DNA from: Epilithonimonas mollis
GTDB lineage: Bacteria; Bacteroidota; Bacteroidia; Flavobacteriales; Weeksellaceae
Direction of reading: 5' to 3'
Length of the DNA: 64,000 nt
Assembly: GCF_900142325.1 (NCBI RefSeq)
Contig: NZ_FRAM01000003.1
Location: forward strand, 186,001-250,000
Below the pieces are notes generated by a model. That model had not been told where the DNA came from and searched no databases. It worked only from the letters and a program-made list of their open reading frames with translations. Position 1 is the first letter of the stretch. Every line of letters begins with the position of its first letter. Shown here in pieces: positions 44,086 through 63,459 of this stretch. A program made the translations under genes and the position numbers.

Positions 44086-44853
44086 ATGCTTTTGAAATTT
44101 TTAGGAACCGGAACATCACAGGGGATTCCCGTTATTGGCAGCCATCATCCGGTTTGCTTGTCGGATAATCCAAAAGATAAAAGACTGCGAACCTCAGCTT
44201 TGGTAACGACAGATTCCGGAAAAAAGATCCTGATAGACTGCGGTCCCGATTTTCGCCAGCAGATGCTGATGAATAAGGAAGAACAGATCGACGCGGTTCT
44301 GATTACCCATGAACATAACGATCATATTATCGGCCTGGACGACCTGCGACCTTTGATCTTCAAGAATAAAGCATCTATGACGATCTATTGTAATTTGCGG
44401 GTGGCTAATGAAATAAGGGAACGTTTTCCATATGCTTTTATTGAGCAACGATATCCTGGTGCGCCAAGTTTTGATCTTTTCGAAATTGATGATAAATTCA
44501 GGTTGTTCGATGAAATTGATATTATTCCTATCGATATCATCCATTCTGAAATTAATATTCTCGGATTCAAATTTAAGAATCTTGCTTATATTACCGATGC
44601 AAGCAAGATTGATGAAAAAGAGAAGGAAAAGCTTAAAAACCTTGATTTTTTTATCATCAACTGCCTCAGAAAAACCGAACCTCATCATTCACATTTTATT
44701 CTTCCACAGGTTTTGGAACTCGTGGAAGAGCTGAAACCAAAGAAAACTTACCTTATCCATATCAGTCATCATTTAGGTTTTCATGATGAAGTGGAACTTG
44801 AACTTCCTGATAATGTACACCTTGCTTTCGATGGATTGGAAATTGAATTTTAA
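44086..44853 (+). CDS. MBL-fold metallo-hydrolase (PhnP-like phosphodiesterase)
   Basis: The protein has 255 residues. The metallo-beta-lactamase metal motif is THEHNDHIIGLDDLR, with later ligands in ISHHLGFHDEVE. The start FLGTGTSQGIPVIGSHHPVC matches the PhnP/lipoate-synthase-neighbour group, whose members hydrolyse cyclic phosphodiesters such as phosphoribosyl 1,2-cyclic phosphate. No phn genes are near, so the physiological substrate is unknown. It is cytoplasmic. Confidence 0.88.
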   Translation: MLLKFLGTGTSQGIPVIGSHHPVCLSDNPKDKRLRTSALVTTDSGKKILIDCGPDFRQQMLMNKEEQIDAVLITHEHNDHIIGLDDLRPLIFKNKASMTIYCNLRVANEIRERFPYAFIEQRYPGAPSFDLFEIDDKFRLFDEIDIIPIDIIHSEINILGFKFKNLAYITDASKIDEKEKEKLKNLDFFIINCLRKTEPHHSHFILPQVLELVEELKPKKTYLIHISHHLGFHDEVELELPDNVHLAFDGLEIEF

Positions 44854-44900
44854 TTCTAAAAAAAGTTGAAAAAAATTTCCAGAATAATGATTTTTTGAAT

Positions 44901-44908
44901 TATATTTG
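44901..44908 (+). promoter_or_regulatory. TAnnTTTG -7 box for tRNA-Leu
   Basis: TATATTTG lies 18 bases before the first base of the tRNA. Confidence 0.65.
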
Positions 44909-44926
44909 CACACCAATTTAAAAGCA

Positions 44927-45006
44927 GCCCAGGTGGCGGAATTGGTAGACGCGCTGGTCTCAAACACCAGTTCTTAGGAGTACCGGTTCGATCCCGGTCC
45001 TGGGTA
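44927..45006 (+). tRNA. tRNA-Leu (anticodon CAA)
   Basis: The 80 bases fold as a class II tRNA: acceptor stem GCCCAGG with CCTGGGT (first pair G-U), D arm with GGTAG, anticodon stem CTGGT/ACCAG with loop CTCAAAC (anticodon 44961-44963, reading UUG), an 11-base variable arm typical of Leu, and T stem ACCGG/CCGGT with TTCGATC. Discriminator base A. The CCA end is not encoded. Confidence 0.96.
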
Positions 45007-45009
45007 CAG

Positions 45010-45162: not shown

Positions 45163-45660
45163 TTACCTTCCAAAATCGTCCTGAACTCTTACGATGTCTT
45201 CCTCATCAGAAGGATTTGAATCATCTGTATGTTGCCAGATTTCTGCAACTATTCCCCAATTGTCTAGTCCGATCAAGCGGTGTCTTTCTTCCTGTTTCAG
45301 CCTGATCTGATTTTTTGGTCTATACTCCTTCATCTCACCTTCCTCGTCTGTATTGCTGATTTTGATGCCTACTATGCCTTCCAGCACTTGCCATATCTCA
45401 GCTCTCCTGTGATGATATTGCCAGCTTAGTCTGGCATTGGGAGCAACAATAAGAATTTTCGGGCTCAGTTTTCCTCCTATTTTCAAATTTTTAACATCAA
45501 TACCGTCAAAATATTGATCTGCAAATGCCTGTGCCTGGGTTTCATCAATAACAAAAAAACCGCCCCATGGTTTTTCGTCATTTTTCGCAGCAATATTAAA
45601 ACCTTGTGAGGAAAGTAATGTTTCCATTCTCTCGAAAATCTCTATTTTCTCTGTGTTCAT
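45163..45660 (-). CDS. Cupin-domain sugar-phosphate isomerase-like protein
   Basis: The protein has 165 residues and a single cupin barrel. KPWGGFFVIDE near residue 30 and SWQYHHRRAEIWQVLEG (metal-binding His cluster) at about 98-114 match the mannose-6-phosphate isomerase type II group. I recall relatives labelled phosphoheptose isomerase. A mannose-6-phosphate to fructose-6-phosphate role would fit its position as last gene of the mannoside locus, 62 bases after the GH92 gene; this is inference. Confidence 0.72.
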   Translation of the reverse strand: MNTEKIEIFERMETLLSSQGFNIAAKNDEKPWGGFFVIDETQAQAFADQYFDGIDVKNLKIGGKLSPKILIVAPNARLSWQYHHRRAEIWQVLEGIVGIKISNTDEEGEMKEYRPKNQIRLKQEERHRLIGLDNWGIVAEIWQHTDDSNPSDEEDIVRVQDDFGR

Positions 45661-45722
45661 AATTTTTTATTAAATCAATTTTATTAGATTGAAATTTCAC
45701 CTTTCAAAATAAACCACAATAT

Positions 45723-47990
45723 TTATTCCCTGGACATCGAATATGGAAAATCTTTTTCATCCGAACCTCGTTCCTTATTGGGCTTATCATTCATGTTAAA
45801 CTCAAGGATGCTTCCTTTGATCAGTTCCTTATGGCTTAACCAATTTTTTGAATACGGCTGCAAATTTACATTTAATGCTGTTACATAAATGTTTTTAAGG
45901 CTATTTTTCTGTGCTTTTATTTGGATCTTTTTTCCATTTTCCAAATGTATTGTTGCTTCCTTAAAAAGTGGAGTGCCTAAAACATACTGATCTGTTGCAG
46001 GTGTGACCGGATAAAATCCTAAAGCAGAGAAAACATACCATGCAGAAGTCTGTCCGTTATCCTCATCTCCACAATACCCGTCAGGTGTTGGCAAATATAA
46101 CTTATCCATCACCTGTCTAACCCAGTATTGTGTTTTGTAAGGCGAACCCGCATAGTTGTAGAGATAAATCATATGCTGTATCGGCTGATTTCCGTGGGCA
46201 TATTGACCCATATTCATAATCTGCATTTCTCGAATCTCATGGATCACTCCACCATAATAGCTGTCATCAAAAACAGGCGGTAGTAAAAAAACTTCATCTA
46301 ATCTGGCCTCAAAATTCTTTTTGCCTCCCATCAGTTTTGCCAATCCGTCCACATCCTGAAAGACCGACCAGCTATAATGCCAACTATTACCTTCTGTGAA
46401 TGCATCACCCCATTTGAACGGGTTAAAATTTTTCTGGAAACTTCCATCTTTATTTTTCCCACGCATTAAACCTGTTTCTTTATCAAAAAGATGTTTGTAA
46501 TTGTATGCTCTTTTTTTATAGATATCAATCTCTGCAGCAGGCTTGCCAAGTGCTCTTCCTAACTGGTAGATGGCAAAATCATCATAGGCATATTCCAAAG
46601 TTCTAGCCGCATTTTCATTAATTTTAACATTATAGGGAACATAGCCGAGTTTGTTATAATATTCTACACCTCTTCTTCCAACTGCATCCATTGGGCCTTC
46701 GTTGTTTGCTCCATGCAGGACTGCTGTCCAAAGGGTTTCTATATCATAACCACGCAATCCTTTTATGTACGCATCTGCTACGACAGAGGCAGAATTGTTA
46801 CCTATCATAATATTGGAATATCCCGGGCTGCTCCATTCCGGCAAGAAACCGCCCTCCTTGTAAGCATTCACTAAACCTTCCTGCATCTCTGAATTCATAC
46901 TCGGGTAGACCAGATTAAGAAAAGGATACAATGCACGGAAGGTATCCCAAAATCCCGTGCCAGCAAATATCTTTCCATCTTCTATCTTTCCGTTGTAAGG
47001 ACTCCAGTGTTTTATTTTGTTCTGTGCATCTATCTCGTATAGTTTCTGGGGAAAAAATAAGGTTCTATACATAGCGGAGTAAAAAGTTTTGACTTGTTGC
47101 TCTGTACCGCCCTTTACTTCAATTCTACTCAGATGTTTATTCCATATATCTTTGGCCTGGGTTTTTATCTCTTCAAAATTTTTATTTCCTATTTCCCTTT
47201 TAAGATTCAGTTCTGCCTGTTCAAAACTGATGAATGAAGAAGCTATCTTTGCATAAACAGATTCTTTATTTCTAAGTTTAAAACTTATAATCGCTCCCAC
47301 ATGGTCGCTCATAATCTCTAACTGGTCTTTTACAAAACGATCATCTTTCCAGCCTGTCGTAGCATCAAAACTTCTGTCGAACTGGATGATAAAATAATTT
47401 TTAAAATTCTCATATTTCCCTCTCGCATATTTCGTTGTGTAGCCAATAATTCTTCTTTCTTTTGGTAGAATTTTGATATAAGAGCCTTTATCCAAAGCAT
47501 CAATGACAACATAAGCACTATCGGTTTTAGGAAAATCAAATTTAAAAAATGCCGCTCTCTCAGTTGGTGTAAATTCTGTGGTTACATTGAAATCAGCCAA
47601 ATAAACGCTGTAATAATAAGGCTTTGCTACTTCGGCCTTATGACTGAACCAACTTGCCCGCTCATCTTCTTTGAATTTTATTTTGCCGATGCCTGGCATT
47701 ATTGCAAATGCTCCATAGTCATTCATCCAGGGAGACGGCTGATGTGTCTGTTTGAATCCGTTGATTTTATCTGCATCATAAGTATAAGCCCAACCATCGC
47801 CCATCTTGCCGGTCTGTGGAGTCCAGATGTTCATTCCCCAAGGAAGTCCTATTGCGGGATATGTATTCCCGTTTGAAAGAGAGGGCTTTGACTGGGTTCC
47901 CATTAATGGATTCACATAATCTGCAGGTAAAAATTCTTGGCCAAATAATAAACTGCTGAATAAAATAAAAGCTAAAAATATGGACTTCAT
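45723..47990 (-). CDS. GH92 alpha-mannosidase (second copy of the PUL)
   Basis: The protein has 755 residues with a signal peptide of 18 residues. The GH92 signature begins at VNPLMGTQSKPSLSNGNTYP and continues with WTPQTGKMGDGWAYTYD. The C-terminal catalytic half has GFWDTFRALYPF, GYCGDEDNGQTSAWYVFSALGFYPV and the calcium/sugar-binding loops of the family. GH92 enzymes are calcium-dependent inverting exo-alpha-mannosidases. The N-terminal motif differs clearly from the other GH92 here (GTGGHGHTFPG type), so the two probably cut different alpha linkages. It is probably periplasmic or outer-membrane bound. Confidence 0.92.
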   Translation of the reverse strand: MKSIFLAFILFSSLLFGQEFLPADYVNPLMGTQSKPSLSNGNTYPAIGLPWGMNIWTPQTGKMGDGWAYTYDADKINGFKQTHQPSPWMNDYGAFAIMPGIGKIKFKEDERASWFSHKAEVAKPYYYSVYLADFNVTTEFTPTERAAFFKFDFPKTDSAYVVIDALDKGSYIKILPKERRIIGYTTKYARGKYENFKNYFIIQFDRSFDATTGWKDDRFVKDQLEIMSDHVGAIISFKLRNKESVYAKIASSFISFEQAELNLKREIGNKNFEEIKTQAKDIWNKHLSRIEVKGGTEQQVKTFYSAMYRTLFFPQKLYEIDAQNKIKHWSPYNGKIEDGKIFAGTGFWDTFRALYPFLNLVYPSMNSEMQEGLVNAYKEGGFLPEWSSPGYSNIMIGNNSASVVADAYIKGLRGYDIETLWTAVLHGANNEGPMDAVGRRGVEYYNKLGYVPYNVKINENAARTLEYAYDDFAIYQLGRALGKPAAEIDIYKKRAYNYKHLFDKETGLMRGKNKDGSFQKNFNPFKWGDAFTEGNSWHYSWSVFQDVDGLAKLMGGKKNFEARLDEVFLLPPVFDDSYYGGVIHEIREMQIMNMGQYAHGNQPIQHMIYLYNYAGSPYKTQYWVRQVMDKLYLPTPDGYCGDEDNGQTSAWYVFSALGFYPVTPATDQYVLGTPLFKEATIHLENGKKIQIKAQKNSLKNIYVTALNVNLQPYSKNWLSHKELIKGSILEFNMNDKPNKERGSDEKDFPYSMSRE

Positions 47991-48061
47991 TATTTGATGT
48001 TAAAGGTTAGGATTAATTATATTCAAATCCTGAATTTATGATTTTTTTGAATACAATCTGT

Positions 48062-48928
48062 CTATTGATCTTTTACTTTTTTCAAAGCGTAACTTGCTGC
48101 TCCCAAAATAGCAGCATCTTCAAATATTTCTGAAATTTTCACTTGAAGAAAAATATTATTTTTGATTAAATTTTCATTAAATCTCTTCTCAAAATGAGGA
48201 TATGCTTTTGTGATATTTCCGCCAATAACTAAAACTTCAGGGTTGTATGGTTTAACATATTTTGCTATAAACTCGGCAAAAGAATCTGCAAATTCTTCAA
48301 ATATTCTGGATTGAATTTCTTTCGACTTCAACTGTAAATCTTTGCTTCCTGATATGGTTTTTCCTGTTAAATCTGCATATCGTTTAACAAACCATCTTGT
48401 AGCAAGATAATCTTCTGATATAGAGTCCTTCATAGGTTTATTCCAGAGATTTTCGTCTGTAGCAAAAGTCGAATTGAAAAATGTGGTGCCTAAACCTGTA
48501 CCCAGAGTCACTCCAAATATTTTTTGAAATCCACCGACACAGCCACCGTAAACTTCGCCTTCCAGAAACGCTACGGCATCATTTAAAAAATGAATTTGCT
48601 GAGTAGAAATACACAATCGTTTTGCCAGCTCTTCTTTTATATTAACTTTATAAATATCGATGAATTTTCCTTGCAGCATCAATGAAATGCCATTTTCATA
48701 ATCGAAAGATCCAGGCATTGCAATCCCAATCAAAAGATTATTAAAATTCAATTTTTTTGCTGCCTTCTCTATTGCAGAAACCCAGACAGAAAGTATTTTA
48801 TCTTGTTTATCTAATGAATCTACAGTATCCCTTACATAAGTGGATGAAATAACTTTACGATTCTTGGGATCCACTTGAGCCAAAGTGATATGTGAACCAC
48901 CAATATCTATTCCTATTATATTCTGCAT
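48062..48928 (-). CDS. ROK family sugar kinase lacking the zinc motif
   Basis: The protein has 288 residues from the ATG at 48928; a TTG 7 codons upstream is less likely. The phosphate-binding motif GIDIGGSHITLAQV and the catalytic Asp in FLNDAVAFLEGE are present, followed by GVTLGTGLGTTFF. The CxCGxxGCxE zinc-binding motif of classical ROK kinases is absent. The expected substrate is GlcNAc, glucosamine or mannose released by the PUL enzymes. It feeds either the NagB-LmbE fusion or the cupin isomerase. Confidence 0.85.
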   Translation of the reverse strand: MQNIIGIDIGGSHITLAQVDPKNRKVISSTYVRDTVDSLDKQDKILSVWVSAIEKAAKKLNFNNLLIGIAMPGSFDYENGISLMLQGKFIDIYKVNIKEELAKRLCISTQQIHFLNDAVAFLEGEVYGGCVGGFQKIFGVTLGTGLGTTFFNSTFATDENLWNKPMKDSISEDYLATRWFVKRYADLTGKTISGSKDLQLKSKEIQSRIFEEFADSFAEFIAKYVKPYNPEVLVIGGNITKAYPHFEKRFNENLIKNNIFLQVKISEIFEDAAILGAASYALKKVKDQ

Positions 48929-49053
48929 TATTTTAATATTATATACCAATCAATCCTATTTTTTGAAAATCAATTTATAAATATTAACCAACAAATATCG
49001 TTAGTTTAAAAAATTAAATTGACCGTTTTTAATTTAAACGACTCATAAATATT

Positions 49054-51378
49054 TTAAGGAATACCTTGCGTAGACCTCTCCAATTCCCTTGCAGATCGAA
49101 GAAACTCATCTACACTCATTTCTCTGAAAAACAGCAGTCCATGGGTTGCCCTCAGGCGGGGACTTTGATTATCATAGAAGTATGCTTTTCCCAATATCAG
49201 CTGGATATCCTGCAACTGCTCTACCCAAGTCTTGATAGATAAGTGACTGAACTTTCCATTATACCTGTAGCTCGGGAAAGAAGCTTCTACCTGACTAAGA
49301 TAAGAATTGGTAAAACTCTCGTCCATAGTGGTCATTGCATTCAGTGAAATCGGGAAAATATGGCTGGAATCTGCAACATGAAACTGATACCAAACATTTC
49401 TGTAACCCCATATCTTCAATTCTGACAGGTCTTTTTCCTTGGCCCATTCTCTCACAGCTTCAGCAATGGCCTGCAGAACTTTGTAATGTGTGTCCGGGCC
49501 ACTGCCTTCCGGATCAAAAGCCAGGCTGATGACTGTAGGATTAATCTCTCTTAACTGTTTCAAAATTGGCAAAACATCCCTTTCTTTAATTGGTTTTTCT
49601 GTAAAAATTGCTCCGGTGTAGAATCCTAACCGCAGATGATGAACATGATCGCCCATCACACCAAAATGTGCCCACACCAACTCTTCTTCATATTCCCGAA
49701 GCATACCTTTGAGGGTCTGAATTTTTGGTTCGGGATTTTGCCCTGTATAACTGCCTTTTATAGCAAAAATTATTTCCAGAATTTGATTTTCTAACTCTGT
49801 TCTATGATTAACATCCCAAAGTTCTGCAATATTCCTTACGATCCTGTGAGATAAAGCTCTGTTTCTCTGATAGGTATCTCTAGAAGCAATATGTATGAGA
49901 TAATGATAGACATCTTTATCTTTTTTGTTCCGGAATCCAGTTTCAAAAAAATCAGGATAAACCAACATTTGAATCTCTCCTTTTCTAATAAAAACAAGTG
50001 CGTCTTCCAAACTTTTTAATAGGAACTTGTTCGTTACAGCTGTAAAACCAGATGTAAGAACAGAATAATGAGACTGATTCGATTCATTTCTGGACTGATA
50101 GTTGATGTAAGGCAATAGTCCAAGAGAAATATCATCGTGATGAGGACCAGTATGATAAAACACTTCATTTTCTAGTTTTTCAATACCTTTAATAATTTTG
50201 CTCTCCATAGAATCCATAACACTTTTGACGGTATTTTCACCAAGGCCTGGAATTAGTTTTGTATAACAGTCATTCTGCAAATCCTGCAAGGTGAGGTGTT
50301 CTGCATATCTATTAAGCTTTTTTGTCAGTGCCATTACAGCTTTGTCTGTTTTGTCCTGATTCCATTTCCCAGAATTATAAAAATTATCAATACAATCCTT
50401 TAGCATACTTGCTGCGCCAGCAGTCAAATAAAATCTTCCGAAAGGAAGCTTCGCCAGGACAGACGCTGGATATAGATTAGAGGGAAAAAACTCCTGCGCA
50501 TCCTTTATCATAGGCGCTTTTGCTTCTCCTGCAGCAAAAATAATGGCAACAGCATCTTTATTATAAGTGATCGTTTCCAAGCCGATGGTGATTACCAGAC
50601 GTTCTTTGGAAACTTCTATACCACCAAGATCTCCGGCTGCAACCGCCTGTGTTTCAAAATTTGTAGCGGTGAGTCTGGTGGTGGAAAGTGCATCGGAACC
50701 CCGTGTGTTGAAAGCAATATGACCATCGGGACCTATACCGCCAAGGAAAAAACCAATGCCGCCTAAGTCACGGATTTTTTGTTCATAATCAGAACACCAT
50801 TGATCGATAAGAAAAATGGATTTCTGCTGAATTTCCTCAGTTATGTTTTTTGGTGTTTCATAACGTAGATTGAGGTTTACAATATTATCAGGGAAGACCT
50901 GTTGATAAGTTTTACCTTCTGCAAGAGGGATTTCGTCACAGTTAATAAGTATAGCCTTTTCCCGGTTCAACCCCAGTCCTTCTATATAATACTGGTTGAC
51001 ATAATGGAAAAAACTATTACCCTGAGTAGATTTTATTGGGTAAAACTCATCGATCTGAACAAAATGAAGCCCATCCAGAGCAGGCTTTTCATCAAAGATT
51101 ATCAAGTGTTTCTTTCTAATTTCTATGACATCATCTCTTTCCCAATTCTGCAAAATATGTTTGGTCCAGGAAATAAAATATTCTGGAGTTTTTCCTGTTG
51201 GCAGACTTATGACACCATTTGGATTTTCATGAGCCCATTCCAGAAAACGCAACGCAGTAAGTAAACCTAGATTAGGAAAATTATCTACAACTATGTAAGG
51301 AACGTTGGTTCTGTTTTTTCTCTCAATATTATCAAAAAAAGATTTTTCTACCGGTGTAAAGTTTTTTAACTTTTTCAT
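49054..51378 (-). CDS. nagB: NagB-LmbE fusion: glucosamine-6-phosphate deaminase with PIG-L deacetylase-like domain
   Basis: The protein has 774 residues, three times a normal NagB. Residues about 25-330 form the deaminase/isomerase domain (SLPTGKTPEYF at 58-68, QIDEFYP at 108-114, GGIGPDGHIAFN at 213-224). From about residue 400 a PIG-L/LmbE domain starts with HTGPHHDDISLG (409-420), the zinc-binding HxxDD motif of N-acetylglucosamine deacetylases. One polypeptide may thus remove acetate from GlcNAc-6-phosphate and then deaminate it to fructose-6-phosphate. No separate nagA is present here. Similar fused forms exist in Bacteroides. Cytoplasmic. Confidence 0.88.
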   Translation of the reverse strand: MKKLKNFTPVEKSFFDNIERKNRTNVPYIVVDNFPNLGLLTALRFLEWAHENPNGVISLPTGKTPEYFISWTKHILQNWERDDVIEIRKKHLIIFDEKPALDGLHFVQIDEFYPIKSTQGNSFFHYVNQYYIEGLGLNREKAILINCDEIPLAEGKTYQQVFPDNIVNLNLRYETPKNITEEIQQKSIFLIDQWCSDYEQKIRDLGGIGFFLGGIGPDGHIAFNTRGSDALSTTRLTATNFETQAVAAGDLGGIEVSKERLVITIGLETITYNKDAVAIIFAAGEAKAPMIKDAQEFFPSNLYPASVLAKLPFGRFYLTAGAASMLKDCIDNFYNSGKWNQDKTDKAVMALTKKLNRYAEHLTLQDLQNDCYTKLIPGLGENTVKSVMDSMESKIIKGIEKLENEVFYHTGPHHDDISLGLLPYINYQSRNESNQSHYSVLTSGFTAVTNKFLLKSLEDALVFIRKGEIQMLVYPDFFETGFRNKKDKDVYHYLIHIASRDTYQRNRALSHRIVRNIAELWDVNHRTELENQILEIIFAIKGSYTGQNPEPKIQTLKGMLREYEEELVWAHFGVMGDHVHHLRLGFYTGAIFTEKPIKERDVLPILKQLREINPTVISLAFDPEGSGPDTHYKVLQAIAEAVREWAKEKDLSELKIWGYRNVWYQFHVADSSHIFPISLNAMTTMDESFTNSYLSQVEASFPSYRYNGKFSHLSIKTWVEQLQDIQLILGKAYFYDNQSPRLRATHGLLFFREMSVDEFLRSARELERSTQGIP

Positions 51379-51521
51379 TTTTCAAGAGTTATTAAATGTA
51401 TCAGTTATTAGCCCGGCCAAATATTTATTTTTTAGCATGACTTTCCATATAGCCCATTTGGAAACCTATAAATAAATTCCGATAAAATGCTTATCATTTA
51501 AATTTTATGAGATTATCAAGT

Positions 51522-52949
51522 TTAATACAATAATTCGGGATGTTCATTGAAGGTTTTCCAAAGCAGTTCGCCAAACAATGTGTTTACCCATGCAAACCAG
51601 GATCTGGTAAATTTCTTGGGATCATCTTTATGAAAAGACTCATGCATAAAACCAGTCCCGCCATGTGTTTTCTGCAGGACTTCTATACACCATCTGATTT
51701 CTTTTTTATCCTCAGAAGTCAGTGCCTTCATAATGATACTCATTGGCCATATCATATCGAGTCCGATGTGTGGGCCGCCAATTCCTTCTGCCACTTTCCC
51801 CCTGAAGAAAAAAGGATTGGCTTCCGACCACACATATTTTCTAGTATTGATGTAAATAGGATCATCAGCCGCCAAAGCTTCCAGATAAGGAAGTCCCAAG
51901 AGGCTTGGACAATTTGCATCATCCATCAGATTATAGCTTCCAAATCCGTTGGTTTCAAAAGCATATATTTTTCCATATTCGGGGTGTTCGTAGATGCCAT
52001 ATTTTTTAACTGCAGCTTCTATCTCATCAGCCAAGCGATTAAGTTCATGAGCCAATGTTGTCTCATTTCTTATTTTTGAAACCATTTCTGCGACTTGACG
52101 CAGACTAACCACAGCAAATAAATTTGAAGGAATAAGGAAAGCATAAATAGTTGCATCATCACTTGGGCGAAACATAGAATTGATGAGTCCTACGGGTTCT
52201 GTCGGATAGCCATAACCTCCCATCGGGATTCCGTCGGTAGCCCATGCCGTTGTACGTTCAAATTTGTAGGGACCAAGATTTGTTTTCCGTTGTTGCTCGA
52301 TAAAAGTCTGTAGAGTAAGCCTAATACCCTTAAGCCAGTCATTGTCAAAAGGTTTTGTATCTCCTGTTGTTTTCCAAAAATGATATGCGAGGCGAATTGG
52401 ATAACACAAAGAATCTATTTCCCATTTTCGTTCATGTATTCCCGGTTTCATATCGGTATGATCAAACTGTTTCCATTCGCTTATTTTATTTTCATCATTA
52501 TAGAATGCGTTGGCATAAGGATCTTTCAGGATGAAATCTGTTTGTTTATAAATAATTCCTGAGATAAGCCTGTGCAGTTTATGATCCTTGTTTGCAAACT
52601 GCAGGTATGGAAAAACCTGGGCAGAGCTGTCACGCAGCCACATAGCATCAATATCACCTGTAATTACATAAGTATCCGGATCTCCATCATTGTTTTTGTA
52701 GTAAACCGTTGTATCTAATGTATTTGGAAAGCAATTCTCAAAAAGCCATGCCAATTCTTTATTCCTGACCTTTTTCTTAAATGCAGAAATCGCATTTTCC
52801 ACTGCTTCGCTGGTAAAATGTCTTTTATCCCTGGACACACGCACCACGGGAAATTCTTCAGCAATAAAGCTCTTCGAAAAGATATTCTGAGTAAAGAATA
52901 ATCCTGCTCCGGCCAGGGTACTTGTTTTTATAAATTTTCTTCTTTCCAT
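51522..52949 (-). CDS. GH125 exo-alpha-1,6-mannosidase with Tat signal
   Basis: The protein has 475 residues. The N-terminus has a twin-arginine motif (ERRKFIKTSTLAGAGLFF), so it is likely exported folded by the Tat system. Family GH125 landmarks are TGDIDAMWLRDSSAQVFPY near residue 100, TTAWATDGIPMGGYGYP, RPSDDATIYAFLIPSN and GGTGFMHESFHKDD near the end. Known GH125 enzymes remove alpha-1,6-linked mannose by an inverting, metal-independent route. This would clear the alpha-1,6 arm of the trimannosyl core of N-glycans. It is 30 bases downstream of the GH92 gene. Confidence 0.92.
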   Translation of the reverse strand: MERRKFIKTSTLAGAGLFFTQNIFSKSFIAEEFPVVRVSRDKRHFTSEAVENAISAFKKKVRNKELAWLFENCFPNTLDTTVYYKNNDGDPDTYVITGDIDAMWLRDSSAQVFPYLQFANKDHKLHRLISGIIYKQTDFILKDPYANAFYNDENKISEWKQFDHTDMKPGIHERKWEIDSLCYPIRLAYHFWKTTGDTKPFDNDWLKGIRLTLQTFIEQQRKTNLGPYKFERTTAWATDGIPMGGYGYPTEPVGLINSMFRPSDDATIYAFLIPSNLFAVVSLRQVAEMVSKIRNETTLAHELNRLADEIEAAVKKYGIYEHPEYGKIYAFETNGFGSYNLMDDANCPSLLGLPYLEALAADDPIYINTRKYVWSEANPFFFRGKVAEGIGGPHIGLDMIWPMSIIMKALTSEDKKEIRWCIEVLQKTHGGTGFMHESFHKDDPKKFTRSWFAWVNTLFGELLWKTFNEHPELLY

Positions 52950-52979
52950 TACTACTATTTGTTTAGATTCTCTGTGTTT

Positions 52980-55205: not shown

Positions 55206-55344
55206 ATTGACAAGCGATATAGTTTTTTTGATAATTAAACTTTCATTTTATGTAGCCCGACCTGAGTGAACATCTTTTATTTGTGGATTGGAAAGGCTGA
55301 TAAAAAAGATTAGGAACGGAGACCGGATCAGTTGCCATAAAAAA

Positions 55345-56316
55345 TCACAGAGCATTTTTTTTCATAAAATCTATAATTTCGGAAATATAACCGAAAGCTA
55401 TAGCAACACAAGTATCGGCAGCGCCATAATAAACTGCTACTTTATCACCTTCATAAAGAGCTGCGCAAGGGAAAATAACATTGGGGACATCACCTGTTGT
55501 TTCATACAATTCTGCAGGTGCTATCAAGTAAGATTTGTTTCTGTAAAGTACTTTTCCGGGATTTTCCAGATCCAGCAGAGCCGCTCCCATTGAATATCTG
55601 AATCCGTTGCAGGTGCTGATTACCCCGTGGTAAAACATTAGCCATCCTTCTTCTGTTTTTATAGGAACAGAGCCGGCACCTATCTTTGTGCATTGCCAGG
55701 CACTTTCTGCGAATGGGGCTATCTTCATCACACATCGATGTTCACCCCAGTATTTCATATCCGGACTATAGCTGATATAGATATCACCAAAAGGCGTATG
55801 TCCATTATCGCTGGGTCTGCTCAGCATTAGGTACTTTCCGTTGATTCTTTCCGGGAACAAGACACCATTTCTGTTGAATGGCAGAAAGGCATTTTCACAT
55901 TGAAAAAACTCCTTGAAATCAAATGTATAATCAATTCCAATTGTTGGTCCATTATAACCATTGCACCATGTAATCCAATATCTATCATCTATGAATGTAA
56001 CTCTCGGATCATATTTATAATCAGAATCTATCATTTCTGTATTTCCTGTCTTGAAATCAATGGGACTATGTTCTATGTTCCAATGGAGTCCATCTTTACT
56101 AAAACCTACAAAAATATTCATCTGAACAGACTTGCTGTCGCAACGGAAAACACCTGCAAAACCTTCTCCAAAAGCGACAACTGCGCTATTAAATATGCTA
56201 TTGGAGCCAGGAATATCGTAGCGGTGTATAATCGGATTTGCAGAATACCTCCACATTATATCTTTGAAATGTTCCGGACGGTCCTGCCAAGGGATTGATT
56301 TTTTATCAATTATCAT
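55345..56316 (-). CDS. GH130 phosphorylase, probably beta-1,4-mannosyl-N-acetylglucosamine phosphorylase
   Basis: The protein has 323 residues, no signal peptide, so it is cytoplasmic. It is a five-bladed propeller with the catalytic Asp103 in [14 protein letters not shown] and the phosphate-binding residues expected in [21 protein letters not shown] and [16 protein letters not shown]. By length and motifs it belongs near subfamily GH130_2, which splits Man-beta-1,4-GlcNAc into mannose-1-phosphate and GlcNAc, the core of N-glycans. The adjacent MFS permease would deliver the substrate. Precise subfamily and substrate are inferred. Confidence 0.88.
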
Positions 56317-56429
56317 TATTGCTTATAGTTTTTATTTTTAATCTCATTACTATTTTTAAACACATTTAAGAATGTCTGAAGTTGAACAATCAATGTCAAT
56401 GCGACATTAATGACTGAGATAAATATTAA

Positions 56430-57707
56430 TTATTTTTGACTATCAGGGTAGCTGAAAGGAACGAATATACTGACAAGAAAAGCCGGTATAGTGGCAACCA
56501 AAACCCATATAAAGAACATTCTGTATCCTAACCAATCGCTTAACAAACCACTTAGCATGCCAGGGATCATTACTCCAAGATTCATGATTCCTGTTGCAAA
56601 TGCATAATGTGCAGTGGCATTTTTGCCGGGTGCTACCTGCTGCATCATATATAAAATGAGTGCGACAAAGCCAAATCCATAACCAAAATATTCAAAAATC
56701 ACGGCACTGCTGATTGTAGCTATATCTGTGGGCTGGAATATCGCAAGGACAGCATAAACCGCAAAAGGAATATTAAAAATAGCGCATAGCCAAAGTAGTG
56801 ATTTTTTCAGGCCTTTTTTTGAAATGAAATATCCGGCGAGAACAGAACCAAAAATAAATGCGGCAGAACCATAAGTTCCATAAATAAGTCCAATCTGTGA
56901 TGTTGAAAGCCCCAGACCCCCGTCTTCTCGGGCTGCCTTGAAGAACAAAGGGGCGATTTTCATAGCAAATCCTTCTGCAAACCGGTACAATATAATGAAT
57001 GTAATTGACCATACAATATTTCGTTTTGTAAAGAATGATGAAATCACTTCCCATAGCTCACGGAAAATTTGTTCTGAAGATACAGCTCTTTGTAATTCTG
57101 GTTGATCTTTTGGCAATATAAGATGATGATATACGGATAAGATAATCATCACTATACTATACATGAACATGATGCAGATCCAGCATTTAGTAACCCCATA
57201 CTGTTTCTCAAGGATACCAGCGATATAGACTAAAAAACCAATACTGAAAATTTTTGCGAGGTTGTAGAAAGCACCTTGCCAACCCACATACTTAGCCTGC
57301 TGACCATTGGAAAGAGAATGAATGTAAATACCGTCCGCAGCAATATCATGTGTGGCTCCGCAAAATGCAATCAGACTTAATATCGCAATAGATTTGCTGA
57401 AAAAATCAGCTAAAGGTAATGTTACAGTCAGTAATGCAAAAAGTATCCCACATGCTAACTGGGTTGTTATTGCGAAGAACCTTTTGGTCATATATATTTC
57501 CAGAAAAGGACTCCATAATGGCTTCAAAGTCCAGGGTAATATTATAAAAGCTGTCCAGAAAGCAATTTTAGCATCTGAAACGCCCATGTTTTTGAACATA
57601 ATCCCAGATGTTGCATTGATTGTTACAAAAGGTAATCCCATTGCAAAATATAAAGTTGGAATCCATAGAAGTGGTCTTGCACCACCTGCTTTTGTTTTTA
57701 TTTTCAT
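56430..57707 (-). CDS. MFS transporter, AmpG-like, probable disaccharide importer of the PUL
   Basis: The protein has 425 residues from the ATG at 57707; the frame also opens at a TTG one codon earlier. About 12 membrane helices are visible, beginning with LLWIPTLYFAMGLPFV, and the AmpG-like segment GATHDIAADGIYIHSL follows near residue 115. In N-glycan PULs of Bacteroides a permease of this sort sits next to GH130 and is thought to import Man-beta-GlcNAc across the inner membrane. It lies between SusD and GH130. Confidence 0.88.
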   Translation of the reverse strand: MKIKTKAGGARPLLWIPTLYFAMGLPFVTINATSGIMFKNMGVSDAKIAFWTAFIILPWTLKPLWSPFLEIYMTKRFFAITTQLACGILFALLTVTLPLADFFSKSIAILSLIAFCGATHDIAADGIYIHSLSNGQQAKYVGWQGAFYNLAKIFSIGFLVYIAGILEKQYGVTKCWICIMFMYSIVMIILSVYHHLILPKDQPELQRAVSSEQIFRELWEVISSFFTKRNIVWSITFIILYRFAEGFAMKIAPLFFKAAREDGGLGLSTSQIGLIYGTYGSAAFIFGSVLAGYFISKKGLKKSLLWLCAIFNIPFAVYAVLAIFQPTDIATISSAVIFEYFGYGFGFVALILYMMQQVAPGKNATAHYAFATGIMNLGVMIPGMLSGLLSDWLGYRMFFIWVLVATIPAFLVSIFVPFSYPDSQK

Positions 57708-57726
57708 CAATAGATGATTTTTTAAA

Positions 57727-57755
57727 GATAGAGCACGTTACTACTGTGCTCTATC
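57727..57755 (-). promoter_or_regulatory. Perfect 10-bp hairpin between SusD and the MFS gene
   Basis: GATAGAGCAC (57727-57736) pairs with GTGCTCTATC (57746-57755) around a 9-base loop. No strong T-run follows on the minus strand, so it is more likely a processing/stability or partial-termination element that keeps susCD mRNA above that of downstream genes. Confidence 0.5.
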
Positions 57756-57782
57756 AATTGAGAAAATGATATAATTATGAAT

Positions 57783-59405
57783 TTATTGTTTTTTATCCCA
57801 CCATAGTTTTGTGCCTCCATTGTCTGCGCCGCCTAGCTGCTGTAATGCCTGTGCATAGTTGAACAATGAGTTTTTAGTACTGTTGGTATAAGGGATTCTG
57901 CGTATCATAATATTTGTATCAATGAGATTACCGCTGTCATTTTGTTTTATCTTGAATAAGATTGGATAACCTGTTCTTCTTTGTTCTGCCCAAGCTTCTG
58001 GTCCGTTCGGATACAGAGACAGCCATTTTTGTGTAATGATTCTTTCTAATTTCCTTTCATTAGAATCAGTGGTGTTCCAGGCGATTGTAATTGTACTCAA
58101 TTGTGGGTCGCCGGAGGCAATGTTATTGGCTGTATTTTTTGGATCCACATAGGGTGCTTCTATTGACGTATTATCAGCCAGATAATTAGTAATATTTGTG
58201 TTTTTGCCCCATTCTCCAAAAGACTGCGTAATACCTGTTGTATAGTTTGTCTGGATATCTCCCGCACCGGAGTAACCTCTCAGAGATGCTTCTGCCTTTA
58301 AGAACCAAGTTTCTGCAGCTGTAAATAATTTGAATTTACCATCTGTTCCGGAAAAATAATCGCCGTTGGCAGATTTTGCCTGTGGCTGAGAATATCCTCC
58401 ATAAGTGCTTTTCCCATTAAGAAGATCTATGCCTTGGCGAATCCCAATATATTGACCACTCACTGCGGCATCAGTTGCTGGTAAAACATAGGCAGAAAGC
58501 CGTGGATCATTATACCCTTTCAGATATGTTACTAAAGGGGCTCCAATTAAACAATCTCCCCATTCATAAATAATGAAGCTGAATTCGTGCTTGGTAACAC
58601 TGATCAGTGCGTTATCTGTATTATTAGTTATCAGACCCGCAGAAGATGTAAGAGCTTGTTCAGAATACTGTTTGGATTTTACCGGGTCTGCATAGCTCAT
58701 GCGCATAGCAAGTCTGAGTTTCAGAGAGTTTGCCAACTTTGCCCATTTTGCAAGATCTCCTCCATATACAAGATCAGCTCTTTTCAGTGCGGACTTATCT
58801 TCTGCATTTTGAGTTGATGAATTGATTCTTTGTAAATCTGCAATAACAGCAGTGAGATCCGAAATGAAGTAATTGTATGCATCCTGCTGAGAGTCAAAAT
58901 CTGTTGTTCCGTTAGAATTCGGTTTTTCATATTTGCTGTAAACAACCGGACCGTGGGAATCGGAAACCCTGCTTGCAACAAAAATTTTTAATATTTTTTT
59001 AACTGCAAGTGTAGCTGTAAAGTCTACTCCCGGATAATAGTTTTTTGCAGCATTGTCAATAATAATAGAAGCATTAAACATAGATTGTTGTTCAGACATA
59101 ATTGTTGAGTTCCATCCATCTATCATATTATAGGTAAGATTGTTTTTTCCGCCTGCAAAAGGGGTCGCTGTACTGAACATTCCACTATACATATCTGCAT
59201 TCAAATTATACCTTATCTGATAGTTTGCCTGGAAGTTTCTTTGCAGAGTCTGCAAAGGATTAACAATTGCAGTATAATCTGCGAGAAAATTTTCCGGGCT
59301 ACCATTATTTTGCTGGTTGATCTCTTCAAAATCATTAGTACAGTTTGAGGCAGAAAACATTAGTCCAGCACTAAGCATCCATATTTTAATATTATTTATT
59401 TTCAT
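57783..59405 (-). CDS. SusD/RagB-family glycan-binding lipoprotein (SusD-like_2 type)
   Basis: The protein has 540 residues. The lipoprotein signal ends SASNC (Cys22). The sequence belongs to the SusD-like_2 group, seen in FEEINQQNNGSPENFLADYTAIVNPLQTLQ and the C-terminal RIITQKWLSLYPNGPEAWAEQRRTGYP block (each quoted in part). It forms the lid on the SusC barrel and binds the incoming glycan at the cell surface. It follows SusC by 16 bases and should be translated from the same message. Confidence 0.93.
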   Translation of the reverse strand: MKINNIKIWMLSAGLMFSASNCTNDFEEINQQNNGSPENFLADYTAIVNPLQTLQRNFQANYQIRYNLNADMYSGMFSTATPFAGGKNNLTYNMIDGWNSTIMSEQQSMFNASIIIDNAAKNYYPGVDFTATLAVKKILKIFVASRVSDSHGPVVYSKYEKPNSNGTTDFDSQQDAYNYFISDLTAVIADLQRINSSTQNAEDKSALKRADLVYGGDLAKWAKLANSLKLRLAMRMSYADPVKSKQYSEQALTSSAGLITNNTDNALISVTKHEFSFIIYEWGDCLIGAPLVTYLKGYNDPRLSAYVLPATDAAVSGQYIGIRQGIDLLNGKSTYGGYSQPQAKSANGDYFSGTDGKFKLFTAAETWFLKAEASLRGYSGAGDIQTNYTTGITQSFGEWGKNTNITNYLADNTSIEAPYVDPKNTANNIASGDPQLSTITIAWNTTDSNERKLERIITQKWLSLYPNGPEAWAEQRRTGYPILFKIKQNDSGNLIDTNIMIRRIPYTNSTKNSLFNYAQALQQLGGADNGGTKLWWDKKQ

Positions 59406-59421
59406 TTTTGTTTTGTTAAGA

Positions 59422-60645
59422 TTAGAAATTGGCTTTTAAAGATAACCCGACAGATCTTGTAATCGGGATTCCAAATGAATCTACCCCTACACCTCCTGGT
59501 GTGTTTCCGGATACTTGCTCCGGATCAAAAGGTGCTTTTTTGTAGAAGAAAAATAAGTTGGTTCCAATAAGACTTACTGATACATTCTTCATATATCTGG
59601 AATCAAGATCAAAAGTGTAGGCAACAGATGCTTGACGCAAGCGAACAGTCGTAGCACTATATATATAAGCTTCGTCTATTCCTGAATTATTATTAAACCC
59701 TCCCACTCTTCCATAATAAGCTTTGGAATCTGACAGGCCGGTGTATGAAGCTCCAGCATTTGGTGTACCTGATGCGTAAACTGCATTTGCAATGGATACA
59801 CCTCCTGCATCGCGTGAGCTTCCGGTGGTTTGGCTCACACCGTACAGATCATTGGCTTTTTCTGTAAGTGATAAAACCTGACCTCCAAATTTACCATCAA
59901 CAAGAAAGGAAACATCCAATCTGCCAATCCTAAAAGTATTGGCAAAACCTAACATAAATTTAGGATTTGGATTGCCCAGATATCCAATTTCTTTGGTTGC
60001 TAAAGGAAGACCATCTGCATCTACCAAAATCCTTCCTTGATCATCCCTCTGGTACCGGAATCCATAAATATCTCCGAAAGAACCTCCCAGTTTTAATTTT
60101 GTATAGTTCCCTCCTCCTGAAAGAGAAAGAAGTAGTTTTTCGTCGATATTCAGACTATTTGGAAATAATTCTGTTATTGTATTTTTGTTTGTAGAACCAT
60201 TCAAAGTAGTTGTCCAACCAAATTTTTCTGAAGTCAAAACTTTGTAAGATAATGATGATTCAAAACCTGTATTTTTTATCTTACCGGTATTTACATAATA
60301 AGAACCAGATGGCAATCCGCCTAAATTTGAAGAAATCGAAAGTGGCAAAAGCTGATTGGTAGCATTTGAATTATAATATGTAAAATCAAATGATAATTTA
60401 TTTTTAAACAATCTTAATTCTGTTCCGGCTTCAAACGTTTTATTGAGTTCTGCCTTTGGAAATAACTGGCTGAAATTAGGGTCTGTCACCATTGAATGGG
60501 TAGGATACACAATATTTCCTGCATCTACAATATATGTATAGGTTCCATTAACATTTTCAACTGTATTGGTTCCATTCGGTGGCAGCCCTATTCCTACAGT
60601 TGCATAAGAACCCCTCACCTTCCAAAAGCTTATAGATTCCGGCAA
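59422..60645 (-). CDS. SusC C-terminal beta-barrel part (downstream of the frameshift)
   Basis: This frame encodes about 407 residues, beginning LPESISFWKVRGSYATVG and ending with the aromatic last strand of an outer-membrane barrel (VGLSLKANF). It contains the typical late SusC blocks TFEAGTELRLFKNKLSFDFTYY and LGNPNPKFMLGFANTF. It has no ATG; the TTG at 60645 is an unlikely natural start. It is only useful joined to the upstream part. Confidence 0.6.
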   Translation of the reverse strand: MPESISFWKVRGSYATVGIGLPPNGTNTVENVNGTYTYIVDAGNIVYPTHSMVTDPNFSQLFPKAELNKTFEAGTELRLFKNKLSFDFTYYNSNATNQLLPLSISSNLGGLPSGSYYVNTGKIKNTGFESSLSYKVLTSEKFGWTTTLNGSTNKNTITELFPNSLNIDEKLLLSLSGGGNYTKLKLGGSFGDIYGFRYQRDDQGRILVDADGLPLATKEIGYLGNPNPKFMLGFANTFRIGRLDVSFLVDGKFGGQVLSLTEKANDLYGVSQTTGSSRDAGGVSIANAVYASGTPNAGASYTGLSDSKAYYGRVGGFNNNSGIDEAYIYSATTVRLRQASVAYTFDLDSRYMKNVSVSLIGTNLFFFYKKAPFDPEQVSGNTPGGVGVDSFGIPITRSVGLSLKANF

Positions 60646-60659
60646 CTTAAAAATAGTTG

Positions 60660-62372
60660 TTAAATGGCATTGGCACCTAGTGATTCATAGTCGTAGCCGC
60701 CAGCCTGAGAGTTTGCCAAAGAGCTATCCCAATCATTCCTGAAAGTCATATCAACATATAACATTTCCTTGTATCCAACTGATGCACTTGTAAATACAGA
60801 CTGTACCTGTTGTTTTCTGCTATAATATATATTGTGATATCCGTCTCTTGGACTTCCGCCCATCCATAAAAGATTGTTCGCAGTAAACAAATTGGGTGCA
60901 GATAAATAAGAATTGTCAATCTGGGTTACATTGTTTCTTGTGGTGCTAATACTTCCTCCCAATGTAAAATCTAAAGAAAAGTCATCACTTAATTTCGGGT
61001 TACCAATCAAAAGTGCATCACCATATGTAGAAGAAGTTTCGTATATATTCTGAAGAAGTCTACCATTGTTACCGCCAGCCAGCATATTCGGATCAGAATA
61101 TGCAGAGATATGCCTTTGTGTATTTGAATTAACCCAGCTATAATTCCCTCTGATTCTAGCAGATAGCCACGGATTGATCTGATATGCCAGAGAAACTGAG
61201 GTATAAACATTTTTGTTTTTGCTTGTTACCCTGTTTCTGTTCAGTATCCAATACGGATTTTGTGTTGCAGGATTACCTTTAAATTTTCCATCTGCTCCTA
61301 TTTCCCACCAGTTTTGGGCAGGCAAAAGTCTATCTTTATTAAGATATGAATAATTATCCTCTGTAAATTTGTCAAAATCTACACCCCTTGGAAGCCAGTA
61401 CAGGCTTAAAAGCGGATTAAATGACGCACCTGGTGTTTGCCGGTTAACACTATTCTGCAGAGATCCGATAAAATTAGCATCCAGGGTTAATTTATCATCC
61501 AGTAGCTTACTGGAGTTTCTAAACGAAAGATTATACTGATCAAAAGCAGATGTCGGTACAATTCCTTTATTAGTCGTATTTCCCAGAGAAAAATAATTAG
61601 TTGATTTTTCATTTCCGGATTGAAAACTGAGACTATTAACCCAAGTCGTTCCGTTTTGTAAAAAACTTTTCAGATAATCATTTGAGCTGCCTTTCGCACC
61701 CCAGCTTTCTATAGTTTCTCCAGGCATCTGACCTGCAACTGAAGGATCAAATGACAGATAACTATGCTGCAGTTTTGGAAGACTGTACGCTTGATCTACA
61801 GTTAAACTTGTACTATAGGAAATAGAACTTTTACCGGCACGACCTTTTTTAGTAGTAATCAGAATTACTCCGTTTCCGCCAGCAGATCCGTACAAAGCAG
61901 ATGCAGAAGCTCCCTTCAGGAAGTTGATGCTTTCTATATCATCTGGATTGATTGAGCTTAATACATCTCCGGAATCCGGCATACTGGAATACTGACTAAT
62001 GTCTGGTGCTTTTCCCGCTCCGTTGATAATAGGTATACCATCTATAACGTACAATGGCTGGCTACTGGAAACCGATTTGTTTCCTCTCATTAAGACTCTT
62101 ACGGAACTGCCAACGCCATTGGTTCTATTGATTTGTACGTTTGACACCTTTCCATTGATAGCGTTTAAAAAATTAGGTGTTTTTACCTCTGTCAACTCAT
62201 CTCCGCCAATCTGCTGTGCGGAATACGTGAGTGACTTAGCTTGTCTTTTAATGCCTAATGCAGTAACCATAACCTCTTCTATATTAGATGTTTTGGTGGT
62301 GTCCTGTAATGTTTCCTGAGCATTAGAACAAAAAGAATAAGCCAGAAAAATTGGAATAATTGCTTTTTTCAT
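60660..62372 (-). CDS. SusC N-terminal part: signal, TonB box, plug and first barrel strands
   Basis: This frame encodes 570 residues: signal peptide (1-18), TonB-box region IEEVMVTALGIKRQAKSLTY, plug domain with VRVLMRGNKSVSSSQPLYVIDGIP and SALYGSAGGNGVILITTKKG, then about half of the barrel up to FRNDWDSSLANSQ. It ends early at the TAA described for the whole gene. A truncated product would lack the closing strands and should not form a channel. Confidence 0.75.
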   Translation of the reverse strand: MKKAIIPIFLAYSFCSNAQETLQDTTKTSNIEEVMVTALGIKRQAKSLTYSAQQIGGDELTEVKTPNFLNAINGKVSNVQINRTNGVGSSVRVLMRGNKSVSSSQPLYVIDGIPIINGAGKAPDISQYSSMPDSGDVLSSINPDDIESINFLKGASASALYGSAGGNGVILITTKKGRAGKSSISYSTSLTVDQAYSLPKLQHSYLSFDPSVAGQMPGETIESWGAKGSSNDYLKSFLQNGTTWVNSLSFQSGNEKSTNYFSLGNTTNKGIVPTSAFDQYNLSFRNSSKLLDDKLTLDANFIGSLQNSVNRQTPGASFNPLLSLYWLPRGVDFDKFTEDNYSYLNKDRLLPAQNWWEIGADGKFKGNPATQNPYWILNRNRVTSKNKNVYTSVSLAYQINPWLSARIRGNYSWVNSNTQRHISAYSDPNMLAGGNNGRLLQNIYETSSTYGDALLIGNPKLSDDFSLDFTLGGSISTTRNNVTQIDNSYLSAPNLFTANNLLWMGGSPRDGYHNIYYSRKQQVQSVFTSASVGYKEMLYVDMTFRNDWDSSLANSQAGGYDYESLGANAI

Positions 62373-62455
62373 AGAATTTATTGTTTTTTGATCAGAGATT
62401 TAAAATTTTTATTATCATTATTATTAATAATTCATTAATACTTAATTAATAATGA

Positions 62456-62463
62456 CAAATCTA
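62456..62463 (-). promoter_or_regulatory. TAnnTTTG -7 box for the mannose PUL
   Basis: On the minus strand this reads TAGATTTG, 84 bases upstream of the SusC start. A 10-bp palindrome ATCAGCTGAT (62530-62539) lies 67 bases further upstream and could be a regulator site or part of the AraC gene's 3' end. Confidence 0.5.
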
Positions 62464-62580
62464 AATTTTGTTACTGATGTGATGTAATACTATTTTGTCA
62501 AAAAAACATATTATTTTTCCCTGTCACAGATCAGCTGATATAATTTTAATATAATAACCCTGAAAAAGCAGAATAAAGAT

Positions 62581-63459
62581 CTATTGGATTTTCTTCACAC
62601 CATTGAACTGTTGTTTAAAAACCGTAGGTGTAACTTTTTTTATCGACTTAAAAGTTTTATTGAAATTAGCAATATTATTAAAGCCCGCTCTGAAGGCTAT
62701 TTCAGAAATCGTCAGATTATTCTCCAAAAGCCAGCGTGTCACATAGCTGACTCTGATCTCATTGATATAGTTGATAAACGTTTTTCCACAACGTTTCTTG
62801 ATAAACCTGTTGAATGTAACAGTGCTCATATTCACCAATGCTGCACCGTCTTCCAAAGTGATCTTATCCCCGAAGTTTTTATGCGCATAATCATGAATTA
62901 TTTTCATTTTATCGTTATCTCCAAAATTTTCATTTTCAACACTATAAGAAGATAGAGGTTTCCTATTTTCCGCTGTGGACAATTCATAAAGAATTTTCAT
63001 AATCTCAATAAAAGAGTCGAAACCCCGCAGGTCGGAAAGATTAAGAAACGATTGCTTCAGCTTCTCAGCCGTACTTTCTGTAAATAAAATGCCAAGATTA
63101 GATTCTTTTAATAAACTATTGATGGACTTGAAAATATTTTTATCCATCAGGCTTTGGCTGAAAAAATCCTGGTTAAACTGTACGGTAATCTCGTGTGTTT
63201 TCTTGTGTTGGCATTCATGATTTGCCCAGCAATGAGGGAGATTCGGACCTATAAGCACCAATTCTATATCCTCAATAATACCTATGTGGTCGCCAACCAA
63301 TCTTTGATATCCTTTTCCCTTTAATATAAAATTGATCTCTACCTCCGAATGAAAATGGTATGGATAATCAAAAGATTTTTTTACACGGTCGAACACAAGA
63401 AAGCTGTCTTGTGGAGAAAGCGGAGTTATTTCTCTTAGAATGTTTTCTAAATTATGCAT
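62581..63459 (-). CDS. AraC family regulator of the PUL
   Basis: The protein has 292 residues. The N-terminal cupin-like sensor (FHSEVEINFILKGKGYQRLVG) would bind a sugar; the C-terminal 100 residues have two helix-turn-helix motifs (KITLEDGAALVNMSTVTFNRFIKKRCG and the signature NLTISEIAFRAGFNNIANFNKTFK, each quoted in part). Its layout matches AraC regulators of sugar use and not the HTCS or ECF/anti-sigma systems common in PULs. It is upstream of susC, same strand, and probably activates that operon. Confidence 0.92.
   Translation of the reverse strand: MHNLENILREITPLSPQDSFLVFDRVKKSFDYPYHFHSEVEINFILKGKGYQRLVGDHIGIIEDIELVLIGPNLPHCWANHECQHKKTHEITVQFNQDFFSQSLMDKNIFKSINSLLKESNLGILFTESTAEKLKQSFLNLSDLRGFDSFIEIMKILYELSTAENRKPLSSYSVENENFGDNDKMKIIHDYAHKNFGDKITLEDGAALVNMSTVTFNRFIKKRCGKTFINYINEIRVSYVTRWLLENNLTISEIAFRAGFNNIANFNKTFKSIKKVTPTVFKQQFNGVKKIQ

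Follow-up and report, generated by a model that had tools for sequence, protein, structure and literature searches.

Polysaccharide utilization loci (PULs) for N-glycans have been described from Bacteroides (PMC10154615, PMC11180146), and three papers on the glycoside hydrolase family GH92 treat the acid glutamate as the engine that the family shares, its mutants being dead or much impaired (PMC5930347, PMC12858847, PMC10167667). Here we describe a locus of Epilithonimonas mollis that runs from 63459 down to 45163 of a 64,000-nucleotide stretch (hereafter the window; positions 186001-250000 of contig NZ_FRAM01000003.1, C9, in a genome of 3.70 Mb and 13 contigs). We conclude with good confidence that the locus belongs to a type of PUL for high-mannose N-glycans that is conserved in Chryseobacterium, and that one of its two GH92 proteins, GH92-B, is acid-less and kept by selection.

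GH92-B (52980..55205, 741 aa) is encoded on the minus strand, like every open reading frame (ORF) of the locus, and matches the GH92 profile over its full length (511 bits against a cut-off of 24.6, profile positions 1-464). We found the general-base aspartate in place (Asp646) and a serine, Ser543, at the position of the general-acid glutamate. This serine aligns with the glutamate of the TEG motif in BT3130, 7ZGM, BT2199 and BT3990. The TEG glutamate is the general acid of GH92 enzymes, corresponding to Glu535 of BT3130, Glu531 of BT3965 and Glu533 of BT3990 (PMC5930347). AnGH92A was killed by both E598Q and E598A (PMC12858847), and alanine or glutamine variants at the acid of BT3990 were badly impaired, not wholly dead (PMC10167667).

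A scan of named genomes with the GH130 protein of the locus gave at least 582 confirmed relatives; the best 80 were kept, 35 of them from Chryseobacterium. When the acid position was read out locus by locus, serine was found in all 35. It was also found in 15 of 15 close genome matches, the window included, a set that may overlap with the 35. We aligned 44 distinct GH92-B sequences with 46 other GH92 proteins, all from the loci fetched by then, excluding proteins whose base motif is altered or whose frame is incomplete. All 44 carry serine and 46/46 of the others glutamate; the GH92-B group was chosen here by a string containing the serine, which makes this comparison circular, and the locus-by-locus readouts are independent of that choice. 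GH92-B differs at further positions: T358G, N603D and G643N, where the other proteins agree in 46/46, H601F (45/46) and Y599L (41/46). It keeps Trp356, Asp357, Trp395, Met405 and the base Asp646.

Outside the GH92-B group, identity to the window's copy in this alignment reaches at most 46%. A similar gap was seen when 395 genomes, drawn evenly from the phylum, were searched at 1e-190: the matches listed had either at least 78% identity (three matches) or at most 47%. Seven matches of the lower class were fetched, and all seven carry the glutamate. Median dN/dS, computed in 13 of the 35 named loci, was 0.031 for GH92-B (68 pairs), 0.036 for GH130 (75), 0.039 for GH125 (72), 0.046 for the permease of the major facilitator superfamily (MFS; 54), 0.089 for SusD (50), 0.075 for the first SusC piece (49) and 0.022 for AraC (27); GH92-A could not be measured. 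Since its median is 0.031, GH92-B is kept by strong selection.

The genes for AraC, SusC, SusD, MFS, GH130, GH92-B and GH125 are present in all 35 named loci, and in each the AraC gene adjoins SusC. The first-pass annotation of the window had proposed a search for the same gene order in Chryseobacterium, and the same set and order was recovered in 35/35. Of the 35, 31 show the ROK kinase gene, 28 show GH92-A and five the cupin, counts affected by a fetched flank that often stops short of these genes; the NagB-LmbE gene lies inside the locus in six. Gene set and order are conserved beyond chance. Of 296 genomes drawn evenly from the order, 49 were listed for the window's family, and 15 of these carry a close GH92-B (78-80%) together with a close GH130 (82-85%). 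The carriers are the window's genome and 14 of 28 genomes of one other genus, which we infer to be Chryseobacterium from the placement of some of these genomes beside named loci in a tree. The annotation's allusion to other Chryseobacterium genomes thus holds for the named relatives, which are Chryseobacterium, but not for the window's own genome: by kinship labels, the other carriers fall in a different genus of its family. Among seven sampled congeners none has the close GH92-B and GH130 pair, and four show only a weak GH130 match (37%). A metagenome-assembled genome labelled Paenibacillus (L081) groups a GH92 gene (59% to GH92-A) with MFS, GH130, two more GH92 and GH125 genes; its label or bin may be wrong.

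The gene list, coordinates, single direction and short gaps (14-208 bases between neighbours) reported for the window earlier are borne out except for SusC. The GH130 protein (55345..56316) was compared with solved relatives and scored 482 bits to UhgbMP, 437 to 5ayd, 411 to 1vkd, 157 to Lin0857 and 71-89 to mannosylglucose phosphorylases. The catalytic residue of UhgbMP is Asp104 (PMC10619541), and three basic residues bind phosphate in GH130 enzymes (PMC4599007). We found that Asp103 of the window's protein aligns with Asp104, and Arg149, Arg167 and Lys211 with the phosphate ligands, which gives it the catalytic aspartate and three basic ligands of GH130 subfamily 2. The residue numbers of the basic ligands in UhgbMP are our assumption. 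Because 5ayd, a beta-1,4-mannooligosaccharide phosphorylase, scores not far behind UhgbMP, sequence does not fix the exact substrate; a Man-GlcNAc phosphorylase is the predicted type. A GH130 of another linkage, the outcome named beforehand as counting against an N-glycan locus, did not turn up.

GH92-A (45723..47990, 755 aa) has intact acid and base motifs, scores 1098 bits to BT3990 structures and shows the His-Glu pair of BT3990 in its sequence, as expected of an alpha-1,2-mannosidase of the BT3990 type. The GH125 alpha-1,6-mannosidase (51522..52949, 475 aa) matches its family profile, PF06824, at 566 bits against a cut-off of 23.4 and 3p2c at 608 bits. The genome has a third GH92 gene (L121 5054-7396, contig C5), which lies outside any visible PUL and has its acid glutamate intact; its relatives in the same family stand at 76-94%. 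The remaining genes of the locus encode an AraC-type regulator (62581..63459, 292 aa, PF12833 66.9 bits), a SusD-like lipoprotein (57783..59405, 540 aa, PF12741 474 bits) whose best solved relative is the chitin-binding SusD-like protein 8j0p, an AmpG-like MFS permease (56430..57710, 426 aa, PF07690 77 bits) that reaches 139 bits on the AmpG family model, under its cut-off of 350, and a cupin of the mannose-6-phosphate isomerase type (45163..45660, 165 aa, PF01050 35 bits against 23.6). A search for a solved relative of the cupin found none.

Two further proteins would act in sugar entry. The ROK sugar kinase (48062..48949, 295 aa, start codon uncertain) passes the ROK Pfam profile PF00480 (59.9 bits against 22.9) and falls short of the GlcNAc kinase model NF009835 (50 against 380). 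The NagB-LmbE fusion (49054..51378, 774 aa) stays below curated cut-offs in its NagB half (TIGR00502 75.5 against 236.9 bits; NF002557 170.7 against 384), where it reads DGHIAFNTRG at the DGH motif in place of the DGHIAFNEPG of aligned solved NagB proteins. LmbE-like deacetylases have an HXDD motif and a later histidine as metal motif (PMC4101496). The LmbE half carries both, with PHHDD at 412 and DHVHH at 577, yet it misses the Pfam PIG-L cut-off (21.8 against 28.2 bits), which leaves that half a weak match. Close copies of the fusion (75-77%) were found in four of the 49 family genomes, the window's included, all four of which carry the locus, and six further family genomes gave weak partial matches (28-37%). 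We also considered the fusion as a stand-in for NagA. NagA was found in none of the 49 family genomes (TIGR00221, 1e-20), in a search that also left the B. subtilis control unlisted. B. subtilis has a nagA, and the absence therefore proves little.

All 35 named Chryseobacterium loci carry one or two extra genes after GH125, none of which is present in the window. Five of these genes (two from L004 and one each from L009, L014 and L023) scored 25-44 bits against the Pfam GH18 profile (cut-off 29.6), four above the cut-off and the L009 gene below it. All five terminate in a type IX secretion tail, and one that was scored with NCBIfam reached 379 bits for Endo H against a cut-off of 300. These putative Endo H-type GH18 genes are the best evidence for high-mannose N-glycans as the target. 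In one of the 35 loci a GH29 fucosidase gene (L023 17376-18710) replaces the second Endo H gene. Across the window and the neighbouring stretches used for comparison, weak matches were confined to the secretion tail, and a search of the whole genome with PF00704 (GH18), which had no Endo H control, returned 0 matches. About 96 kb from the locus, the same contig carries a PNGase F-type gene (L120 5290-6939, at about 133.3-134.9 kb; PF09113, 105 bits) with an end similar to the secretion tail found on Endo H in the relatives.

From the gene content, families, key residues, conservation and selection observed, we infer the substrate, compartments, order of steps and regulation of the pathway as follows. 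In relatives with an intact locus, release of the glycan from the glycoprotein would fall to secreted Endo H-type GH18 enzymes, and SusC/SusD would bring the glycan in. Trimming would then be carried out by GH92-A (alpha-1,2), presumably GH92-B (alpha-1,3) and GH125 (alpha-1,6), after which the MFS permease may carry Man-beta-1,4-GlcNAc into the cytoplasm. There, GH130 would use phosphate to convert it to Man-1-P and GlcNAc, and the kinase, the cupin isomerase and, in some loci, the NagB-LmbE protein would hand the sugars on. Regulation probably rests with the AraC protein. The window's genome would have the same machine without Endo H and with a split SusC.

Several observations weigh against this reading. 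GH92-B has no general acid, the NagB-LmbE and ROK proteins match their families weakly, and the 35 Chryseobacterium loci come from the best 80 of at least 582 relatives and are not a fair sample. In the window itself Endo H is missing, and SusC is split: 570 codons with a TonB plug domain (60660..62372, PF07715 55 bits) are closed by a stop at 60660-60662, and the remaining 407 codons continue in another frame (59422..60645, no Pfam match). SusC was called a single gene in the first-pass annotation; it is uninterrupted in all 35 named Chryseobacterium loci, and the window therefore lacks both the intact SusC/SusD pair and the endoglycosidase expected of an N-glycan PUL. Moreover, the window's GH92-B has a serine in place of His608, the sole change among 40 columns identical in 89 other GH92 proteins. 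As sequenced, the window's locus should not import glycans by itself, because SusC is split and Endo H is missing. The annotation had claimed a candidate gene for each step. Its observation is partly confirmed and its interpretation partly supported: the claim fails for import and release, and perhaps for the removal of alpha-1,3-mannose, for which GH92-B is the sole candidate in the locus.

A sequencing or assembly error could account for the split SusC, in a locus otherwise working and fed by the PNGase F-type enzyme, and we rate this explanation as plausible, somewhat short of an even chance. The other ORFs of the locus are uninterrupted and the PNGase F-type gene is on the same contig. Changes found in the window only, counted at conserved columns after dropping rows with stops or under 90% length, are few in GH130 (1/170, against 80 others), GH125 (2/170, 38 others) and MFS (3/110, 57 others). 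The counts were 8/181 for SusD (34 others), 7/349 for GH92-A (13 others), 30/200 for AraC (35 others) and 72/594 for NagB-LmbE (six others only). However, the missing Endo H and the His608 change in GH92-B fit decay. The state of the window's copy is consistent with decay at an early stage as well as with a sequencing error in a locus that also lacks Endo H, and we make no choice between them.

GH92-B presumably takes the alpha-1,3 step, since GH92-A and GH125 would take the alpha-1,2 and alpha-1,6 linkages, and since its clade and NED triad point the same way. The closest folds are BT3130 and BT3965, followed by the alpha-1,3 enzyme 7ZGM, with CcMan5 far off, and the NED triad that GH92-B carries has been tied to alpha-1,3-mannosidases (PMC12858847). 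Two invariant acidic residues, Asp603 and Asp550, have been gained near the site. An AlphaFold model gave a sound fold (pTM 0.87) with low confidence in the active-site loops (397-403, 538-547, 589-599 and 643-645), and because of these loops the model names no new acid. The most likely role of GH92-B is that of an alpha-1,3-mannosidase in which the proton donor has shifted, the last step of this reading being a guess. We regard as evenly balanced the wider proposal that GH92-B founds a GH92 clade acting without a general acid, by a moved donor or on a leaving group that needs none, and is kept by selection to work with Endo H, GH125 and GH130 in a Chryseobacterium N-glycan pathway.

GH92-B might instead cut nothing and be a selected mannan-binding or regulatory protein, the alpha-1,3-mannose being removed by another enzyme such as the orphan GH92 of contig C5. 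The death of the AnGH92A acid mutants, the alteration of several other invariant site columns and the presence in the genome of that orphan with its glutamate are in line with such a role. We consider it possible, if doubtful, for the base aspartate and most other family-wide columns are retained, selection on GH92-B is as strong as on GH130 and GH125, and the impaired acid mutants of BT3990 were not wholly dead. An unlikely reading is that GH92-B is a phosphodiester mannosidase removing Man-alpha-1-phosphate caps from phosphorylated high-mannose glycans, in which the phosphate would leave without help from an acid. Loss of the acid with the base aspartate kept suits this chemistry, as would invariant gained lysines and arginines such as K207, R388 and K389 if they lie in the site, and a GH92 enzyme acting on mannose-phosphate-mannose exists (PMC9522356). 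However, the genes found in the locus include no phosphatase, CcMan5 is a distant relative with 23% identity, and the NED triad and nearest relatives indicate alpha-1,3. CcMan5 presumably has a glutamine at the acid position, which would make it a possible precedent for a GH92 protein with no acidic residue there.

The proposed target, high-mannose N-glycan, is upheld by a GH130 nearest UhgbMP, a GH92-A nearest BT3990 and the Endo H-type GH18 genes that all 35 named relatives carry. Yeast alpha-mannan or algal glucuronomannan is a very improbable target in its place: GH92 and GH125 also occur in such loci (PMC10154615, PMC6298971, PMC9723552), but the GH130 is of the Man-GlcNAc type, the relatives have Endo H-type GH18, and no GH76, GH99, GH38, GH88 or sulfatase was among the ORFs scanned.

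The locus starts beside a tRNA-Leu(caa) gene (44927..45007, plus strand) in a variable region. The corresponding stretch was fetched for five of the seven congeners; all five share the tRNA and its three neighbour genes, after which different content follows. The site is marked by a metallo-beta-lactamase-fold gene together with the tRNA (window 44086-45007), and further content differs in each of the five congeners; that of one (L158 824-9305) has Wadjet JetA, JetB and JetC genes and a PDC-S06 candidate defence gene. Recent transfer from Chryseobacterium was considered, given the tRNA border, the variable region and the absence from 7/7 sampled congeners, and was set aside. The window's GH92-B matches the other copies at 0.776-0.80 identity, close to the 0.759-0.775 seen across the same genera for five sequences of the orphan GH92. 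GC is unremarkable, and the 20 kb retrieved from the opposite side of the locus showed no repeat of the tRNA end. The identities do not point to recent transfer. An old arrival, or loss in the congeners, fits equally well.

A search of open papers by title found no Chryseobacterium N-glycan locus and no account of an acid-less GH92. Loci of this kind are known, and the AraC regulator and built-in sugar-entry genes set ours only modestly apart; the novelty lies in the acid-less GH92 clade. Within a defined pathway, an ortholog group without its acid and under strong selection amounts to a natural experiment on an inverting glycosidase changing its chemistry, and an acid-less GH92 could be a new tool for glycan trimming. 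The locus also shows a non-gut N-glycan pathway packed in one operon, from release to sugar entry.

Among characterized proteins, UhgbMP is the nearest solved relative of the window's GH130 by sequence, with the catalytic aspartate and basic residues kept and no difference of note. BT3130, BT3965 and 7ZGM, of the GH92 alpha-1,3 / alpha-1,4 clade (PMC5930347, PMC9522356), share their fold and most family-wide columns with GH92-B, which differs from them by the serine for the acid glutamate and by T358G, H601F, N603D, G643N and Y599L. CcMan5 (PDB 2xsg), the GH92 enzyme acting on mannose-phosphate-mannose, stands much further away. The mannose-rich PULs of marine Flavobacteriia share the GH92, GH125 and GH130 families; those with GH125 were likened to yeast-mannan PULs, and Endo H-type GH18 is not named in the available portion of that report (PMC6298971). 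The closest described locus is PUL72 of B. thetaiotaomicron (BT3983-BT3994), which has SusC/SusD, GH92 enzymes including the BT3990-like alpha-1,2 enzyme, and a GH18 endoglycosidase that it shares with the intact relatives of our locus (PMC11180146). Compared with PUL72, the window's copy is without GH18 and its SusC is split. PUL72 has an ECF sigma factor where the window's locus has AraC (PMC11180146), and it leaves the last trisaccharide to genes elsewhere, whereas the locus described here builds in GH125, GH130, the MFS permease and the sugar-entry genes.

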